DNA of 37,543 nucleotides, taken from assembly GCA_020851635.1 (NCBI GenBank), contig JADZCJ010000138.1, forward strand, positions 1 through 37,543, written 5' to 3'. The position numbers and the translations under genes were made by a program. Of the stretch, positions 2,953 through 31,287 are shown one piece after another. Source of the DNA: Anaerolineae bacterium. Lineage in GTDB: Bacteria; Chloroflexota; Anaerolineae; UBA4142; SHND01. The notes beneath the pieces were generated by a model that did not search any database, was not told the DNA's origin, and was given only the letters and a program-made list of their open reading frames with translations. Numbering within the stretch: the stretch's first letter is position 1; every line of letters begins with the position of its first letter.

Positions 2953-3825
2953 TCACATCTGTTTCCAGCGGGTTTCGACAAAGCGAACAACCGCCGAAAG
3001 AATCAGAGTCAACACAAGATACATAAAGGCGAGGGTTGTGTAGGTTTCGATGTAGCGAAAGGAGGCGGAGGCATAGAGCCGCGCTTCCTGAGTCATGTCA
3101 CGAACGCCGAGCGCCGAGACCAGTGACGAATCTTTGAGCATCGAAATCAGGTCATTGCCGAGCGGAGGCAGCACTCGGCGAATCGCTTGGGGCAGCACCA
3201 CATAGCGCATTGCCTGCGGATAACTCATCCCGAGCGAGCGTGCAGCTTCCATTTGCCCCCTGCCGATAGACTCGATGCCCGCGCGAAAGGTTTCGGCTTC
3301 ATAGCCGCCATAGGCAAAAGCGAGGGCGATGATACAACGCAAAGTAAAGTCAATATCGCGCGAGCGCACCGTGGTCAGCGCATTGGGGTCACCCAGGATT
3401 GGCGTCAGCCATTGACCCAGCGCATTGACGCCATCAATTACGAGGGGAACGATCACAAACGCCCAAAAGAGCAGCTGGACAAGAATTGGGACGCCGCGAA
3501 TCACCTGCACATAAAGCGTCGCGACATTGTAAATGACCTTGTTTTTCGAAACGCGCCCAAGACCTGCCGCAAGACCAAGTATCAGCGCTGAAATATACGA
3601 AATAGCCGTGACATAGATGGTGACGACAACACCGTTGAGGATGCGGCCAAGCGCTGTGACATAAGTTTCATTCGAGCTATACAAATAGATCAAAAGTATG
3701 CCGGCCAACAAAATAAAAATGAGCCAATAGGGAAGGTTTGCAAGCTGGTCCACGGCGCGTGACTGCGCCGAGATGGGTGTTGCTTGCGGTGTTCGAGGGG
3801 CTCCGCTCCCCGCAGGTCCTTGCAT
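2953..3825 (-). CDS. glnP: Polar amino acid ABC transporter permease (GlnP/HisM type)
   Basis: 290 aa from the ATG at 3825. Inner-membrane permease with a Pro/Ala/Ser-rich cytoplasmic N-terminus (about 35 residues), a first membrane helix (YWLIFILLAGILLIYLY) and further helices. The EAA-type coupling loop lies in the second half (GQMEAARSLGMSYPQAM, then LPQAIRRVLPPLGND). A TTG five codons upstream (3840) is in frame but lies inside a strong hairpin, and neither start has a clear Shine-Dalgarno. It pairs with the GlnQ-type ATPase. Only one PAAT permease gene is seen, so a homodimer is likely. Confidence 0.88.
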   Translation of the reverse strand: MQGPAGSGAPRTPQATPISAQSRAVDQLANLPYWLIFILLAGILLIYLYSSNETYVTALGRILNGVVVTIYVTAISYISALILGLAAGLGRVSKNKVIYNVATLYVQVIRGVPILVQLLFWAFVIVPLVIDGVNALGQWLTPILGDPNALTTVRSRDIDFTLRCIIALAFAYGGYEAETFRAGIESIGRGQMEAARSLGMSYPQAMRYVVLPQAIRRVLPPLGNDLISMLKDSSLVSALGVRDMTQEARLYASASFRYIETYTTLAFMYLVLTLILSAVVRFVETRWKQM

Positions 3826-3834
3826 CTCGAGTGT

Positions 3835-3866
3835 GGGCAAAGCTGCCCGGTGAGGCAGCTTTGCCC
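3835..3866. other. 13-bp perfect stem-loop between binding protein and permease genes
   Basis: GGGCAAAGCTGCC (3835-3847) and its exact complement (3854-3866) enclose a 6-nt loop. For the minus-strand transcript the hairpin comes 24 nt after the stop of the fused binding-protein gene and just before the permease start. No U-run follows it on that strand; the T-run is on the plus-strand side. A partial terminator or an mRNA-stabilising element that raises binding-protein level over permease level is the likely role. Confidence 0.6.
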
Positions 3867-3889
3867 TTTTCCTTTATGCTGTCACGCGC

Positions 3890-6007
3890 TTATGGCGTTG
3901 TGGTGGGATATTCAACCGGAGCAATATCATCATACGAGATTTGCTCACCGCCGAACCACTTTTTGGCGAGCGCTTCAAGTGTCCCGTCGGCGCGCATTGC
4001 CGCGAGTGCGGCGTTGACCGGCGCGACCAAATCGGAACCTTTGGGAAATACAAACCCGAGCTGTTGCCCGACCATTGATCCCTCGAGAAGTTTGATTTTG
4101 TCCGCATTCACGCCGACATAACCGACTCCTGCAGTGTCGTCAATGACAACACCGTCCACGTCGCCGGCGATCAGCGCCTGCACGGCATCACCAAATGTGT
4201 CAAAGGCAACAACGCGGCTTTCGCCGACGAGTTTGACGGCTTCTTCATAGTTTGTTGTGCCTTTTTGGGTGCCGAGACGGGCGGTGGTGCTGTTCTTAAA
4301 GTCATCAATGGACTTGAACGTGGTATCATCCAGCCCGACCATGATGCGCTGATCAACAGAGATATAGCCATCAGAAAAGTCAACAGTCTTGGCGCGCTCG
4401 TCGGTGATGGTGATGCCGTCCGCCGCCATGTCAAACTCGCCCTGTGAAACGGCGGTGATCATGCCATCCCATGCAATTTCCTTGAATTCGGGGGTGCAGT
4501 TCAATTTCTTGCAGAGTTCGGCGAGCGCGTCATAATCCCAACCCTCCGCCTTGCCATTATCGAGACGGATATAGTTGAATGGGATGTATGCGTTCTCGAT
4601 CGCGACCGTGATGGTGCGCCCGCCGAGATCAGGGACCGCTCCGGCAGAAGCGCCGCCCGTCGGGGTCGGCTCGGGTTTGGGATAGACCTGCACCCACGCG
4701 CCATCCTTGACTTCGTTGATGATGACGTTGGTGGATTCAGGTGGGCGGTCGCCCGTTGCGTCAAAGGCAATTGCGCCCGTCACGCCCTCGAGATTGGTGG
4801 CGCGCACTGCATCGGCAAGCGCTTTGCGCCCGACAACCAGATCACCGTTCGCGTCAACCGTAGCTGACGCTTTCAGCGCTTCGACCAGAATGTGCACCGC
4901 ATCGTAGGTTTGAGGGCTGAACACAATGTTTTTCGGATCGCCGCCTTTGGCTTGATACGCCGCAACGAAATCCTTGTAACCGGCGCCTTGCTGCGAAGAA
5001 CCGAACGAGGCATACACACCCTCGGCAACCGCGCCCAGATTGGATATAAAGTCGGCGCTAAACGTGCCGTCCGCGCTCATGAGCACTGCATCCGCGAGAC
5101 CGACTTCTTCCTTTTGCGTGGCAATGACTGCCGCTTCCGGCCAGAAACCACCAAAGAAAATCATTTCGGGCGCGCCGGCAGCGACTTTGGTCAGGGTCGC
5201 CCGAAAATCTTTTTCACCCACAGTCACAGCTTCCGTGTCGCCGACGATCTCACCCCCGCCTGCGGCAAACGCTTCGGCGAATGCTTGGGCAAGACCTTGA
5301 CCATAAGGCGAACCGTCATGCATGATCGCGGCTTTTTTGAGACCGAGCTCTTTTAGGACAAAGTTGGCATCCGCAGGACCTTGAATCTTGTCATTGAACG
5401 CCGTGCGAAACACGGACTGCAGCCCGCGCGCCGTCACCTGGACTGCCGTAGCAGAGGGCGAGATGCTTACAATGTGTGCCTTGTCAAGAATCTCGGTGCC
5501 CGGGATTTCACCCGAAGAGCACATAAAACCAATGTGACCGACAATTGCGGGATTGGCGACAATCTTGTTGGCAATCGTGGTGCCGCCGGGACCCGAGCAC
5601 AAGTCATCTTCGGTAACGACCTCGAGGGCGAACCCATTGATGTCTTTGCCGAAATCTTCGGCGCCCATGTTGGCGCCCAATTGCATGTCAATGCCAAATG
5701 CGGCGAGGTCACCGGTCATGGCTGCGCTAAAGGACGCCTTGATAGTGTCGCCCTTTTTGACAGTGACGGTCCCCCATTCATCCGCAGCCGCCGCGGGCGC
5801 AGCTGTAGCTGCAGGTGCAGAAGTTGCGGCAGGTGCAGAAGTTGCGGCGGGCGCAGAAGTTGCCGCAGGCGCGGAAGTTGGGGCGGGGGCGCTTGTGGGC
5901 GCGGGGGCGGGTGCTGCGGCAGGTCCACAGGCGGCGATGACAAACATCAGCGCCAGGACCAGCGTGCCGAGCACAAACGTGCGTTTAGAGACGGACGATC
6001 CATTCAT
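3890..6007 (-). CDS. Fused two-domain amino-acid-binding lipoprotein (PBP1-PBP2)
   Basis: 705 aa from the ATG at 6007, preceded by GGAGGAGAACCGC; the frame extends 28 codons upstream without a ribosome site. Signal peptide with VIAAC lipobox (Cys27), then a low-complexity Pro/Ala/Thr/Ser tether to about residue 75. Residues about 80-450 are a complete Liv-type (PBP1) binding domain ([44 protein letters not shown]). After the linker [10 protein letters not shown], residues about 462-705 are a complete Gln/Arg-type (PBP2) domain ([57 protein letters not shown]). Either half matches a whole stand-alone binding protein. Its neighbours are permeases of both kinds, so it may feed both. No frameshift is seen; the fusion is one clean frame. 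Confidence 0.9.
5796..5903 (-). repeat. 18-bp tandem repeat coding the lipoprotein tether
   Basis: Six units of 18 bp start at 5796, 5814, 5832, 5850, 5868 and 5886. They encode an SAPAAT-like hexapeptide in the flexible tether right after the lipidated Cys27 of the fused binding protein. The units nearest the globular domain are the most alike; the outer ones have diverged. Copy number is likely to vary between strains. Confidence 0.75.
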
Positions 6008-6362
6008 TGCGGTTCTCCTCCTCCGAGAACGGTCAAACCCGATGGGCTTGACGGATAAAAAAGGGTCTGATGGCGCAGCAGCGCCGGGCAATACTCTTTT
6101 GATGTTGCAGGTCCGCTGGAAACTATTCTCTGAATAGCTGCTTGCATCAACACTGTGTCGTGTCTGGCGGCAAATTCAGCACAATGTCACTGACGCCTCT
6201 CATTCGAAAGTGCAAGACAGTGCGTGACCGAGTGTGCATATCGTTGCTGCGCTTGTGCGCCGAGAGCGCACGGGCAAAAGATCGGGTCATTGCTGATCCG
6301 GCGTTTCAAGCAGCCGGCGAGGGCAAGGGGAAAAAGGCAGCCAACGCCAACATTGGTGCGCG
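6008..6362 (-). other. Long (about 350 nt) structured 5' leader of the fused binding-protein gene
   Basis: There is no gene between livM and the binding protein on either strand. The consensus promoter at 6391-6363 would give a leader of about 350 nt. On the minus strand it holds the hairpins CTATTC-AGA-GAATAG and GGCGC-TGCT-GCGCC. The latter is followed after 9 nt by a run of six T. Next comes GTCAAGCCC-ATC-GGGTTTGAC (one G-U pair), which ends 6 nt before the GGAGGAGG ribosome site. I do not recognise a known riboswitch class. Attenuation or translational control is possible. Confidence 0.4.
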
Positions 6363-16279: not shown

Positions 16280-16326
16280 AAGAAACCGGGCGTCATTTCC
16301 CTCAGAAATGCCGCCCGGTTTCTTTT
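16280..16326 (+). terminator. Rho-independent terminator of the MFS gene
   Basis: A 13-bp stem (16280-16292 / 16312-16324) with a further inner CATTTC/GAAATG helix ends in a T-rich tract. It starts 4 nt after the stop codon. Confidence 0.88.
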
Positions 16327-16332
16327 CGCCCC

Positions 16333-16358
16333 GTAAGGAACGAACGTCGTTTCGTTCC
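16333..16358. repeat. Dispersed palindromic repeat (copy D)
   Basis: Core form: GTAA, GGAACGAA, 6 nt (CGTCGT), TTCGTTCC. It stands 7 nt after the MFS terminator. Confidence 0.85.
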
Positions 16359-16395
16359 CCGCGCCGTTCCCTTGCCCACCCGCCAATATCGCCCG

Positions 16396-16421
16396 GTAAG
16401 GAACGAACGCCGTTTCGTTCC
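16396..16421. repeat. Dispersed palindromic repeat (copy E)
   Basis: Core form, same orientation as copy D and 63 nt from it. Its right arm TTCGTT falls at the -35 position of a possible promoter whose -10 TAGAAT is at 16438-16443, upstream of the quinone oxidoreductase gene. Confidence 0.85.
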
Positions 16422-16492
16422 CTCCTCGAATCTGCGGTAGAATGGATTGCCAAGGTTTGAGCGACAAACCTGAATCTGTGAGGAGAGATGTA

Positions 16493-17461
16493 ATGAAGGC
16501 AATTCGTTTTCACGACGTCGGTGGACCTGATGTGTTGCAATTTCAAGAGGTCGAGATGCCAACGCCCGAGGCGGGGCAGGTGCGGATCAAACTCCACGCC
16601 ATCGGGGTGAACTATATAGATATATATCACCGCACCGGGCTTTACAAACTCCCTCTGCCCGCGATTCCCGGACAGGAAGGTGCGGGCATTGTGGATGCAG
16701 TCGGCGCAAATGTGACCGATTTTCATATCGGCGACAGGGTGGCGTTCGTGCTGGACGCCCCGTCCTATGCCGAGTATACAGTCGTTCCCACAGTGCGCCT
16801 GGTGCAAATTCCTGACGATGTTTCCTTTCAACAGGCCGCGGCGGCGCTCTTGCAGGGGCTGACCGCGCATTATTTGTGTTTCAGCACATATCCGCTCAAG
16901 CAGGACGAATGGTGTTTGATCCATGCGGCAGCGGGCGGCGCGGGACAGCTCACCGTCCAAATGGCGAAAATCGCAGGCGCCCGCGTCATTGGGACCGTTT
17001 CGACACAAGAAAAGGCGCGCGTCGCTCAAGATGCGGGCTGCGATGAGGTCATCTTGTACACCCAGACCGATTTCGTCCCGGAGGTCAAACGCATTACCAA
17101 CAACAAAGGGCTGCCTGTGGTGTATGATTCGGTGGGCAAAGACACTTTTCAGGGCAGTCTCGAGTGTCTTGCGCCGCGCGGCTATATGGTGTCGTGGGGA
17201 AATGCTTCGGGTCCGGTGCCGCCGCTCGACCCCCGCGAGTTGATGCGCAAGGGTTCGCTCTACTTGACGCGTCCCACGCTCGGACACTATATTGCGACAC
17301 GTCAAGAATTGGACTGGCGCGCAGCGGATTTGTTTCGCTGGCTTGCCGTTGGCAGATTGCGCGTCCGCATTGACCGGACGTTTGCGCTGCAAGATGCCGC
17401 AGAAGCGCATCGCTATATCGAGAGTCGCGCGTCAATGGGCAAAATCTTGATAGAACCTTGA
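16493..17461 (+). CDS. NADPH:quinone oxidoreductase (zinc-free MDR family)
   Basis: 322 aa, the usual length for QOR. The ATG at 16493 follows AGGAGAG. N-terminal GroES-like half: MKAIRFHDVGGPDVLQF, GVNYIDIYHRTGLY, PGQEGAGIV. Rossmann half: IHAAAGGAGQLTVQMAK with the glycine-rich NADPH loop, then VVYDSVGKDTF and the final GKILIEP. No catalytic or structural zinc cysteines are present, as expected for QOR. It likely reduces quinones or reactive carbonyls with NADPH in the cytoplasm. It is followed at 65 nt by the GatB/YqeY gene. Confidence 0.92.
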   Translation: MKAIRFHDVGGPDVLQFQEVEMPTPEAGQVRIKLHAIGVNYIDIYHRTGLYKLPLPAIPGQEGAGIVDAVGANVTDFHIGDRVAFVLDAPSYAEYTVVPTVRLVQIPDDVSFQQAAAALLQGLTAHYLCFSTYPLKQDEWCLIHAAAGGAGQLTVQMAKIAGARVIGTVSTQEKARVAQDAGCDEVILYTQTDFVPEVKRITNNKGLPVVYDSVGKDTFQGSLECLAPRGYMVSWGNASGPVPPLDPRELMRKGSLYLTRPTLGHYIATRQELDWRAADLFRWLAVGRLRVRIDRTFALQDAAEAHRYIESRASMGKILIEP

Positions 17462-26901: not shown

Positions 26902-26930
26902 TTGACACCCTCGCACAGACGTTCTATAAT
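26902..26930 (+). promoter_or_regulatory. Promoter of the Rossmann/wHTH two-gene unit
   Basis: TTGACA (26902-26907), 17-nt spacer, TATAAT (26925-26930): fully consensus. Transcription would start near 26937, 36 nt before the first ATG. Confidence 0.85.
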
Positions 26931-27572: not shown

Positions 27573-28838
27573 ATGCCCGACCCCAATCTCAATCTGCTGG
27601 AATGGTATGCGGCGCACCGGGGCGAGGTGGACGTGCTGCGCGACCCGTCCGCGTTGTTTGCGCTCGGGCTGCTCGACCATGTGGGCGAAACCTCGCGCGG
27701 TGCATTACAAAATGACCTTGGGGTGGAGCCGGGCGCACTCGACACAATCGTCGAGAAATTGTATGCCGCAGGATTTGTCGCCACGCGCGGCGCCACGCTC
27801 GCTGTCACGCCCTCGGGTAATCAATTTCTGACCGAGATCGGTTTGCGCGGTCCGCTGCCGCCGCCGACGGGAAACCAAAACACGCCCGAAACGCCGAACC
27901 CGCCGACGCCCTTGCCCAAACGGATGCCGCTCAAGCCCGCCGCGACCCCTGCGCCGCGCATCCCATTGTGGCTCTGGGTCCTGATTGGCGTTTCGATTAT
28001 CGGAATCACTTTGGTCTTTGGGGTCCTGCTCCGCGACCCTGGCGCGCAACCGCCCACACCGCTGCCCGTCCAAACCGTCACCGAGCAACCCGCGCCGCCC
28101 ACGCGACTGCCCATCCAAACCGTCACCGAACAACCCGCGCCGCCCACGCGACTGCCCATCCGAACCGCCACCGACCAATTCGTATCCCCCGCGCCAACGG
28201 CACACGAGGTCGCGGATTCGACGCCGACGACGTTTATCGCGCCCGCGGCTGAAATCGTTTTCAAAGTCGAGCCGCGTTCCATTTCACCCGGCGCGTGTGC
28301 GATTCTCACATGGCAGGTCTCGAATGCGCGCGAGGTTTTTATGGACACCCAACCGGTCAAGGAGCAAGCACGAACGCGCGTTTGCCCAAAAGAGACGACC
28401 ACCTACACCCTGACGGTCCTCGCCCTGAACGGCGAAAAACTTGTTCAAACGATAGAGCTCGCGGTAGCCCAACCGGAATCGAATTACGTGTGGACGATTG
28501 TGGGCAAGGACGCGCCCTTTGACAATGTGCGCCTCCAAATCGCCATAGCATCCGCGGTAGATGAACCCGCGATCGCCAAAGCGGTCTTGCAAGGCGCGGG
28601 CAGCTTGTACAACACTGACCCCAAGTTGGACGAGATAGAATATGATTGGGGACGCGCGCTCGAGTTGAGTAAAGAGACCAAGTATGACGGGCAGCCGATT
28701 TTCATTGTGCCCGACCGGGACCGGACCTCTGCCGCAGTGGCGAGCGCGATCGCCGAGTATCTTCAAGCGGCGAACTTTCAAGTCCGTCTCGTCAATGTCG
28801 AGTCGCGTGCTACAATTCTTGTCGGACCAGAAAGATAG
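27573..28838 (+). CDS. Multidomain membrane protein: wHTH, TM, Ig-like, SBP5-like lobe
   Basis: 421 aa. Residues 1-90 look like a winged helix ([40 protein letters not shown], then a wing with [15 protein letters not shown]). A Pro-rich linker follows, with one membrane helix at 131-153. A Pro/Thr stalk with 15-residue repeats runs to about 200. An Ig-like domain (about 228-300; [27 protein letters not shown]) is next. The end, about 313-415 ([66 protein letters not shown]), resembles the C-terminal lobe of peptide-binding proteins (SBP_bac_5) without the rest. The N-terminus would be in the cytoplasm and the last two domains outside. Function unknown. Confidence 0.7.
28062..28181 (+). repeat. 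45-bp tandem repeat in the extracellular stalk
   Basis: Units start at 28062, 28107 and 28152 (the third is partial). They encode [30 protein letters not shown] and [10 protein letters not shown]. The DNA is almost identical between the first two units, which points to recent duplication. Confidence 0.85.
28789..28816 (+). promoter_or_regulatory. Possible uvrB promoter inside the preceding gene
   Basis: TCGTCA (28789-28794), 16-nt spacer, TACAAT (28811-28816). It lies in the last codons of the upstream gene and 33 nt before the uvrB ATG. Confidence 0.4.
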
Positions 28839-28849
28839 GAATAGGACCC

Positions 28850-30985
28850 ATGCCGGAATTCAAACTAGCTGCTCCCTTTCAACCCACCGGTGACCAGCCC
28901 GCCGCCATCGAAAAACTCGTCAGCGGAATCGAGGCGGGAATGAAATACCAGACCCTGCTCGGCGCGACCGGCACGGGCAAAACGTTTGTGATGGCAAACA
29001 TCATTCAACAATTCCAGCGCCCCGCCCTGGTGATTGCCCACAACAAGACGCTCGCCGCGCAGCTCTATGCCGAGTTTCGCGAATTTTTCCCGCAGAACGC
29101 CGTCGAATATTTTGTCTCGTACTATGATTACTATCAGCCCGAGGCATACGTCCCCTCCAAAGACCTGTATATCGAAAAAGATTCCAGCATCAACGACGAG
29201 ATTGACCGGCTTCGTCTCGCCGCGACCAGCTCCCTCTTTTCCCGCCGGGATGTGATTATCGTCGCGTCGGTCTCGTGCATTTACGGTCTCGGTTCGCCGG
29301 AAGATTACGGGCGCGTCGTCATTTCGCTCAAACGCGGCGAGATTCGCCAGCGCGACAAGATTCTGCGGCACCTCGTGGACATTTATTATGAACGGAATGA
29401 CCTTGAATTGGGACGCGGCAAGTTTCGCGTGCGCGGAGACACGCTCGAAGTCGCGCCCGCGTACGGCGAGACCGCCTACCGCATCGAATTTTTTGGCGAC
29501 GAGGTGGACCGCATCACCGAAGTGGACCCGCTGACGGGCGAGCTCCTGCTCGAGCATACCTCGATTGACATTTATCCCGCCAAGCATTTCATCACGCCGC
29601 AGGAAAAACTCGCACAAGCGCTCGAGGATATTGAAGCGGAATTGAACGAGCAGCTCAAGCTCTTTCGCGAACAGGGCAAACTTTTAGAGGCACAGCGCAT
29701 CGAACAGCGCACCAAATATGATATCGAAATGATGCGCGAGCTCGGTTTTACCTCCGGCATCGAAAACTATTCGCGCCACCTTTCCCAGCGCGCGCCCGGT
29801 TCCCCGCCCTGGACGCTGCTCGACTATTTCCCCGACGACTATCTCATTATCGTGGACGAGTCGCACAACACGATCCCGCAGATTCGCGGCATGTATAACG
29901 GCGACCAGGCGCGCAAAACCACGCTGGTTGACTATGGCTTTCGTCTGCCCAGTGCGTTGGACAATCGCCCGCTCAAATTCGACGAATTCGAAGCCAAGAT
30001 CAATCAATTGATTTTTGTCAGCGCGACCCCGGCAGCTTTCGAACGCGAGATCTCCGGGCAAATCGTCGAGCAGGTCATCCGCCCGACCGGTCTCGTTGAC
30101 CCCACCGTCATCGTGCGTCCCATCAAGGGGCAGGTTGACGATCTCGTCGCGGAACTGCGAAAACGCATCGGCGAAGGCGAACGCGCGCTGGTCACCACGC
30201 TCACCAAACGGATGGCAGAAGACCTCGCCGACTATTTGCACGAGCTGGCGTTCAAGGTGCACTATCTTCATTCCGAAGTGCAAACGCTCGAACGCATCGA
30301 AATTCTCCGCGATTTGCGAATGGGCGTTTATGATGTGGTCGTCGGCATCAACCTGCTCCGCGAAGGGTTGGACCTCCCCGAAGTGTCCCTCGTCGCCATC
30401 CTCGACGCCGACAAAGAGGGCTTTTTGCGGAGCGAAACATCATTGATCCAGACGACGGGTCGCGCGGCGCGCCATGTCAACGGCACCGTCATCATGTATG
30501 CGGACAAGATCACCGATTCGATGCAGCGCGCGATTGACGAAACCAATCGCCGCCGCGCGATCCAGCAAGCATACAACCGGGCTCACGGCATCGAGCCGAT
30601 GGGCATCGTCAAAGAAATCAAAGACCTGACCGACCGTGTCCGCTCCACCGCCGAGTCACGCGGCGAATACGTGACCGAAAAAGGCGGTCTGCCGCTCGAC
30701 ATGCCCAAGAGCCAGGCGCATAAATTGATCGGCGAACTGGAAAAACAAATGAAAGAGGCGGCGGGCAAATGGGAGTTTGAAAAAGCCGCCATGCTCCGCG
30801 ACCAGATCATGGAACTGCGCGCCATGCTCGCCGCACAGGACGCCCGCCCCGAGTGGCAAAAAATCATGGCGACCGAAGACCACTGGGAGATCGAGCAGCT
30901 CCGCGAACAAAAAGCCGAACGCGATGCAACGACCGCCGCGCCAAAAAACGCGCCGCCGCGTCCCTCCCGCACCCGCCGCCGCTGA
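28850..30985 (+). CDS. uvrB: Excinuclease ABC subunit B
   Basis: 711 aa, slightly longer than usual. UvrB is the DNA-damage-checking helicase-like subunit of nucleotide excision repair; it works with UvrA and UvrC. Walker A GATGTGKT is at residues 38-45. The beta-hairpin region [15 protein letters not shown] is intact, the DESH box is at about 336-339, and helicase motifs such as [17 protein letters not shown] and QTTGRAARH follow. A C-terminal UVR motif (about 624-658, [17 protein letters not shown]) binds UvrC. The tail after it is Ala/Pro/Arg-rich. The start ATG has AGGA upstream. Only 11 nt separate it from the multidomain protein gene. Confidence 0.97.
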
Positions 30986-30993
30986 CAAACCCA

Positions 30994-31115
30994 GTAAGGA
31001 ACGAACGCCGTTTCGTTCCCCCACCGCCGCCGACAAACACCGTAAGGAACGAACGCCGTTTCGTTCCCCCACCGCCGCCGACAAACACCGTAAGGAACGA
31101 ACGCCGTTTCGTTCC
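30994..31115. repeat. 48-bp tandem array of the dispersed palindrome (copies F, G, H)
   Basis: Three cores (30994-31019, 31042-31067, 31090-31115), each with perfect GGAACGAA/TTCGTTCC arms, repeat at exactly 48 bp. The linker, CCACCGCCGCCGACAAACACC with little change, resembles the end of uvrB itself (CCCGCCGCCGCTGACAAACCC, 30970-30992). The unit seems to be uvrB 3' end plus one palindrome, amplified in place. It starts 8 nt after the uvrB stop. The stretch 30986-31327 is otherwise without genes. Confidence 0.9.
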
Positions 31116-31174
31116 CCATTCCCAGAGCTGGCGCCAAGCTGGAACGGGAAAAGTGTCATTTCGCACGGCATGAG

Positions 31175-31243
31175 TGTCATTTCGAACGGAACGTAGTGCA
31201 GTGAGAAATCTCTCGACTGCTCTCGAGATCGTTCGACATGACA
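31175..31243. repeat. 69-bp palindromic element, second repeat family
   Basis: The ends TGTCATTTCGAACG and CGTTCGACATGACA are inverted repeats with one mismatch. Inside are GTAGTGCAGTGAG, AATCTC and CTGCTCTCGAGATC. A partial copy of the left end (TGTCATTTCGCACGG) lies just upstream, at about 31154. The right half of the element recurs at 33388-33420. Repeats of this kind (by memory) occur in many genomes as intergenic elements. Confidence 0.75.
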
Positions 31244-31265
31244 TCGAACGCGACTTGGCAAAAGC
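31212..31265 (+). repeat. Left direct repeat of the 2.2-kb block (54 bp)
   Basis: The 54 nt match 33388-33441 with 52 identities, in the same orientation. It overlaps the right half of the palindromic element and runs on through ATCGAACGCGACTTGG and CAAAAGC. Confidence 0.9.
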
Positions 31266-31287
31266 CCTGATGCGATTGCCGTACATG

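Follow-up and report, generated by a model that had tools for sequence, protein, structure and literature searches.

A conserved membrane-anchored winged-helix chassis with exchangeable outer heads, paired with an NDT-like gene ahead of uvrB in an Anaerolineae bacterium

The DNA analysed here, called the window throughout, is a stretch of 37,543 nucleotides from an Anaerolineae bacterium (contig JADZCJ010000138.1 of assembly GCA_020851635.1). On its forward strand a sigma-70-type promoter (TTGACACCCTCGCACAGACGTTCTATAAT) stands ahead of a small gene with features of nucleoside deoxyribosyltransferases (NDT-like), which is followed after 3 nt by the gene of a membrane protein, P0001, and then by uvrB (Table 1). 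P0001 joins a winged helix, a transmembrane helix, an Ig-like domain and a part resembling SBP5 proteins in one chain, as an earlier note on this DNA had read from its letters, and Pfam, hydropathy, the AF2 model and VIA-align together bear this reading out. Elsewhere in the window, intergenic repeats at 30985-31270 and about 16300-17400, with the six-frame strings NETAFVPY and ERNGVRSL, are probably copies of a dispersed palindromic element.

Table 1. Features of the promoter-to-uvrB locus, in window coordinates
Feature	Position	Strand	Basis or remark
Sigma-70-type promoter TTGACA-17-TATAAT ahead of the pair	26902..26930	+	motif search; uvrB promoters of relatives
NDT-like (Rossmannoid) partner gene, putative, 198 aa	26973..27569	+	family-level matches; Gly at putative catalytic Glu position
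Putative receptor gene P0001	27573..28838	+	421 aa, ATG start
Winged-helix domain of P0001, residues 1-90	27573..27842	+	structure model, Foldseek, VIA-align
TM helix of P0001, residues 132-153	27966..28031	+	hydropathy, structure model
Pro/Thr-rich linker of P0001	28050..28178	+	45-bp (15-aa) tandem repeat, 2.9 copies
Ig-like domain of P0001, residues 227-299	28251..28469	+	structure model, conserved Cys pair
SBP_bac_5 piece of P0001, residues 304-421	28482..28835	+	Pfam, two-sequence profile, comparison with own-genome SBPs
uvrB, 11 nt downstream of P0001	28850..30985	+	conserved neighbour

The first 90 residues of P0001 were expected to form a winged helix, and they do: in the AF2 model (pLDDT about 90 in this part) it spans residues 25-88, with the order H25-37, E39-41, H42-49, H53-66, E69-72, E75-78 and H80-88. 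All 50 rows listed by VIA-align are winged-helix proteins, mostly MarR/ArsR (best 2qww_C, Z 12.5, rmsd 1.5, 71 aligned); these rows cover the winged-helix part alone, and the absence of SBP chains among them is uninformative. Winged helices also rank first in Foldseek (NolR, E 8.8e-3, probability 1.00). By Pfam, the single P0001 sequence matches weakly here (MarR 0.037), and one family member, L085, stands above the HTH_27 cut-off (22.6 bits against 22.2; 1.3e-4). The transmembrane helix is placed at residues 135-153 by hydropathy (mean 2.59) and at 132-152 by the model. The Ig-like part is modelled as all-beta, with strands over 227-299 and pLDDT about 55-79, it carries a conserved Cys pair (C242/C271), and the module recurs elsewhere in the bacterium's own genome, its genus and its phylum. 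A C-terminus outside the cell is indicated by the Cys pair, by the stalk rich in Pro/Thr and by the charges flanking the transmembrane helix, and the inside/outside topology proposed earlier is supported, as is the reading of the domains. Such a layout, with an N-terminal winged helix, one transmembrane helix and a predicted C-terminal sensor outside, is ToxR-like. A search of genome contigs found no wider relatives of P0001.

The C-terminal end had been described as the C-terminal lobe of a peptide-binding protein without its N-terminal lobe, a description that calls for refinement. The end matches Pfam PF00496 (SBP_bac_5) at 5.9e-10, above gathering, over positions 202-327 of the 368 in the profile. 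A LytR_C or other fold for the last 110 residues was rejected, SBP_bac_5 being the sole family above cut-off (Toprim_3, at 0.0076, falls below its own). A two-sequence profile of the piece matches dipeptide-binding proteins (8z1z_F at 1.1e-6; 1dpe at 2.7e-6, residues 273-382 of 507), and the corresponding stretch is 310-419 of 539 in the closest complete SBP that the own genome encodes, about 120 further SBP residues of that protein being missing from P0001. The N-terminal lobe is indeed absent from P0001, and the two-lobe arrangement with its ligand cleft is not present; what the alignments leave is roughly the N-terminal half of lobe two rather than that whole lobe, with lobe boundaries that we take to be those of SBP structures. 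Since the AF2 model is poor over the piece (pLDDT 30-50), its identification rests on sequence. A half lobe of this kind probably offers a surface for binding rather than a trap that closes on a ligand, and it may not take part in binding in any way.

Seventeen places in the own genome match the lobe profile and P0001 is the only lone lobe among them, the other 16 being 14 frames of 539-641 aa, one of 1220 aa and one of 379 aa with an internal stop. Across the phylum (400 genomes) the SBP part matches 10 places, in frames of 521-660 aa. Given the frames in which these other matches lie, the lone piece appears, within the genomes searched, peculiar to P0001 and its homologue in G005, a second genome of the genus. 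Derivation from the full SBP5 genes that stand beside two paralogues (L065 and L066, see below) was considered and is not supported, as their proteins miss the two-sequence lobe profile and the own-genome SBPs match it. Two further binding-protein arrangements were seen in the same genome: a single secreted protein with two whole binding domains, Peripla_BP_6 and SBP_bac_3, in the window (3890-6091, minus strand), beside an ABC cassette whose components look to be of branched-chain and polar amino-acid type; and, at L104 (G000 contig 15, 1126-3303, minus strand), a long frame resembling ATPase/TPR-type regulators, with no signal peptide in the part examined, which ends in an apparently complete SBP5 domain and would be another SBP5-regulator fusion.

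The G005 homologue (locus L003/L057) is full-length, has 44% identity to P0001 and lies among the same neighbours. Its last residues are those of P0001 and uvrB begins 11 nt further on, so that the C-terminal end of P0001 can be taken as real. Identity between the window and G005 is 66% over the winged helix and 36% over the SBP piece; measured against L003, the winged helix, at 67.8%, is the most conserved part and the ectodomain reaches 38.6%. The exact domain order of P0001 has this one further full-length case among the 6 genomes of the family, and it was not found elsewhere in the 400 genomes of the phylum. The earlier statement that no such arrangement was known therefore holds for the exact order, G005 apart, but the protein belongs, as one form among several, to a family in which ectodomains are swapped.

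Among 396 genomes of the class, homologues of the NDT-like gene occur at 14 places in 11 genomes, every one of which falls in the order to which the window belongs. Strong matches to the winged helix are found in 11 of the 20 genomes of this order and, weak generic winged-helix matches excepted, nowhere in the rest of the 396. Nine members have two genes (the window, L003/L057, L058-L063 and L085), and in eight of them the NDT-like gene abuts or overlaps the gene for the winged helix and transmembrane helix, L085 beginning at a contig start. Four paralogues (L064-L067) carry the NDT-like part and the winged helix in a single chain, three of them retaining the transmembrane helix and a short tail, and two NDT-like homologues (L068, L069) have no such membrane-protein gene. 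This fusion in four paralogues suggests that the NDT-like protein and the winged helix probably act together. With the NDT-like gene 3 nt upstream and fused elsewhere, a lone one-component sensor signalling straight to its winged helix, as first proposed, is not the best reading. Beside L066, downstream of pnp, a gene for an SBP5-like lipoprotein (PF00496 1.4e-69) lies 67 nt from the fused gene; at L065, also downstream of pnp, such a gene was noticed by eye about 1.6 kb from the fused paralogue.

The inner and outer halves of these proteins are conserved to different degrees. Among the nine two-gene members, the winged helix links 35 of the 36 pairs (blastp, 0.01), whereas the ectodomain that follows the transmembrane helix and linker, split off by a simple composition rule, links 4 of 36 at the same threshold, namely the window with L003 and three propellers with one another. 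Pfam identifies the heads as beta-propeller/lactonase in L058, L061 and L062, as CarboxypepD_reg in L059 (1.1e-15) and as CBM96 in L063 (5.2e-24), and finds no family for the ectodomains of L060 and L085. Nine chassis thus bear six kinds of head, the Ig-like domain with half an SBP lobe and the two without a family included, and six kinds imply at least five head changes. Resolution is poor in the trees built from the inner parts and from UvrB, and they do not demonstrate head swapping within the propeller group, since a single propeller clade was not rejected (p-AU 0.126 and 0.313). The inner half, then, is conserved among relatives and the outer half is replaced by entirely different domains; because the ectodomain is exchanged in this family, the half SBP lobe is not its defining feature.

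The product of the upstream gene seems, from matches made mostly at the level of its family, to be an NDT-like protein with a weak relationship to the effector of retron Ec86. PADLOC's NDT_II-A is matched by 8 of the 14 family members (best 6.4e-7), the window copy not among them; the NCBIfam model of the retron St85 effector matches the L058 partner at 3.6e-5, below its curated cut-off; and DUF4062 is weakly matched by 5 of the 14 (best 0.023). A profile of the partner family matches the Ec86 effector structure (7v9x_C) weakly, at E 0.023, with Glu aligned with Glu, and a profile built from six close members only does not recover it. Taken on its own, the window copy matches no family significantly in Pfam, PADLOC or NCBIfam. 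Its model is Rossmannoid and of low confidence (pLDDT 56.6). Foldseek returns three matches under 0.001, all phosphoheptose isomerases (best 2.5e-4, rmsd about 14), followed by DNPH1/RCL at 4.1e-3, and VIA-align gives MilB CMP N-glycosidase at Z 11.0, with G-alpha and receiver domains within 1 of that value.

The Glu aligned with that of the Ec86 effector is one that we take to be catalytic in this superfamily, where it is expected behind the strand leading into the active-site helix. It is kept in 8 of the 14 partners (L058-L063, L068 and L069) and missing in the other 6 (L057, L064-L067 and the window, which has Gly). Its catalytic reading agrees with the E103A in the PDB title of MilB, and with the statement on Glu in a preprint (PMC13174449). 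Because this residue is missing, the partner in the lineage of the window is more likely nucleotide-binding or structural than an active enzyme, and the window copy itself is probably not an enzyme of NDT type. One of the lone, Glu-bearing homologues (L069:4542-5111, minus strand) precedes, by eye, genes resembling a zinc-ribbon/MerR-like protein and hsdM of type I restriction, a defence-like setting for the domain.

The position of the pair recurs. Downstream of it lies uvrB in eight of the nine two-gene members, L060 ending at a contig edge, and in L058 and L063 a frame of 211 or 220 residues comes between. The gene uvrB itself is present in 18 of the 20 genomes of the order. The stretch upstream of uvrB was examined in ten genomes in which the pair does not accompany this gene. 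Within the genus, a glycosyltransferase directly precedes uvrB in G002 and G003, and in G004 a glycosyltransferase and one extra frame do. No member of the pair lies upstream of uvrB in six other genomes, and the tenth, G613, gives 220 uninformative bases. Sites of the form TTGACA-17-TATAAT number 3 in the window and 0 in 100 shuffles. The one ahead of the pair is identical at 29/29 bases before uvrB in G004, and agrees at 22/29 before uvrB in G002 and at 26/29 before the NDT-like gene in G005; no matching promoter was found before uvrB of G003 (15/29), and in the other family there are weak versions alone, 17-18/29 in three of six members (single-base shuffles). Since the same promoter precedes uvrB in relatives that lack the pair, the pair lies between the uvrB promoter and the uvrB frame, and uvrB is the probable last gene of an operon with it. 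This comparison bears on the idea that P0001 might act on a target near 26902. An autoregulatory operator there is not supported, because the promoter exists in G004 without the protein and its conservation is thus no evidence of an operator for P0001; inverted repeats near 26902 are short. Two oddities of uvrB were seen along the way: in L085 (1418-1921) and L143 (G622 contig 119) the gene looks interrupted just past Walker A by an intein-like insert, giving a frame of about 1170-1270 residues, and one open frame of 1036 residues in L147 (G003 contig 13, about 3704-4700) and L131 holds both uvrB and, ahead of it, a glycosyltransferase that is truncated, as if the two had been joined by a deletion or by an assembly fault.

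Domain make-up, pairing and fusion of the genes, exchange of ectodomains and the position between promoter and uvrB are established computationally. From these we infer a docking, a direction of signalling and a function: the two genes would form a cassette for a transmembrane receptor, housed within the transcription unit of uvrB, in which P0001, a surface receptor with an exchangeable head, signals to the NDT-like partner, a reading to which we give a probability of about one half. As the architecture suggests, a ligand or contact would bind the outer head and the change would pass along the transmembrane helix as far as the winged helix. This domain would most likely dock on the cytosolic NDT-like partner, a step to which fusion and adjacency point, and binding outside would then alter the assembly or state of that partner.

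The chief rival is direct DNA binding, with P0001 a one-component regulator of ToxR/CadC type whose head senses a ligand and whose NDT-like neighbour is a co-factor. It is possible, though we consider it somewhat unlikely. The topology of winged helix inside, one transmembrane helix and sensor outside is that described in PMC5936718, the fold matches DNA-binding MarR/ArsR proteins, several family members have Arg/Lys in the recognition helix, and the HTH_27 family passed by L085 is titled 'winged helix DNA-binding'. Charge gives an ambiguous picture: over a core of 61 residues the family averages -0.25, the window copy being lowest at -4, and is more acidic than 15 control domains of MarR_2 type from the own genome (mean +1.87, Mann-Whitney p 0.037), but the recognition helix alone is no different (p 0.71). 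Against this rival, the site near 26902 is conserved without the protein, and the fusion with the NDT-like part points to a protein partner. A bolder form of the receptor cassette is doubtful: in it, the chassis would be a winged helix with an NDT/TIR-like nucleotide hydrolase, the heads would be lineage-specific, and contact outside would trigger cleavage of NAD+ or nucleotides inside, in the Glu-bearing members and from a DNA-repair promoter, as in a membrane-triggered relative of retron and Swarozyc effectors. More doubtful still is a surface-display anchor or adhesin, whose heads would bind walls or sugars while the inner parts anchor and no signal passes; CBM96, Ig-like and propeller heads and long Pro/Thr stalks are typical of such surface proteins, but the cytoplasmic winged helix is the best conserved part and the cytosolic partner gene is kept, and an anchor needs neither. 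It is very improbable that P0001 has no function and is in decay or the product of a recent shuffling, its half lobe a fragment captured by chance, for although the lobe is incomplete and the only lone one in its genome, the same architecture and end recur in G005 at 44% identity, in an intact frame with equal spacing to uvrB.

If the locus is a receptor cassette, half of one SBP lobe can persist as part of a surface head, and the position behind a uvrB promoter raises the question of whether the receptor is made together with the repair response. In addition, the sensing end is replaced wholesale, with no such change in the inner part, in the partner gene or in the place that they occupy in the genome, which amounts to a series of natural head-swap experiments.

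In comparison with known systems, each part of this arrangement has a counterpart. ToxR-like receptors, as described in PMC5936718, have the same layout as P0001, with an N-terminal winged helix inside, a single transmembrane helix and a C-terminal sensor outside. P0001 differs from ToxR and CadC in its MarR/ArsR-type winged-helix matches, its NDT-like partner or fusion and its exchangeable heads, and DNA binding is putative here. Similarly, DsvR, which is homologous to SgrR of E. coli, unites an N-terminal HTH and a C-terminal SBP_bac_5 domain in one chain (PMC13060122), and P0001 has this in common with it. In P0001, however, the two are separated by a transmembrane helix, a stalk of Pro/Thr and the Ig domain, and no more than half of a single lobe is kept. 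Both SgrR and DsvR, by contrast, are soluble proteins in which the SBP domain is complete. The retron Ec86 (type II-A) effector is, by its PDB title, an NDT with a DNA-binding domain, the latter presumably a winged helix, and an NDT-like part is likewise joined to a winged helix in the fused paralogues; here, in contrast, there is a membrane anchor with an ectodomain, and the Glu is lost in 6 of 14 members, the window included. NDT effectors are treated in PMC12405507 and PMC12548924. Swarozyc systems, with DUF4062 TIR-like NADases, use a separate HTH/winged auxiliary domain as sensor and are described in a preprint as anti-phage, with a sensor that binds the portal (PMC13174449). Both there and here a TIR/NDT-like domain is accompanied by a winged auxiliary that stands apart from it, but here the sensing is assigned to a membrane protein that bears an outer head. 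In the open-access literature searched, the parts (ToxR topology, HTH with SBP, NDT with DNA-binding domain, TIR-like domain with winged auxiliary) are known separately, and no NDT-like protein and winged helix that also have a membrane anchor and exchangeable heads were found there. Through the present family, NDT/TIR-like domains, known from cytosolic anti-phage effectors, would be linked to a transmembrane receptor.
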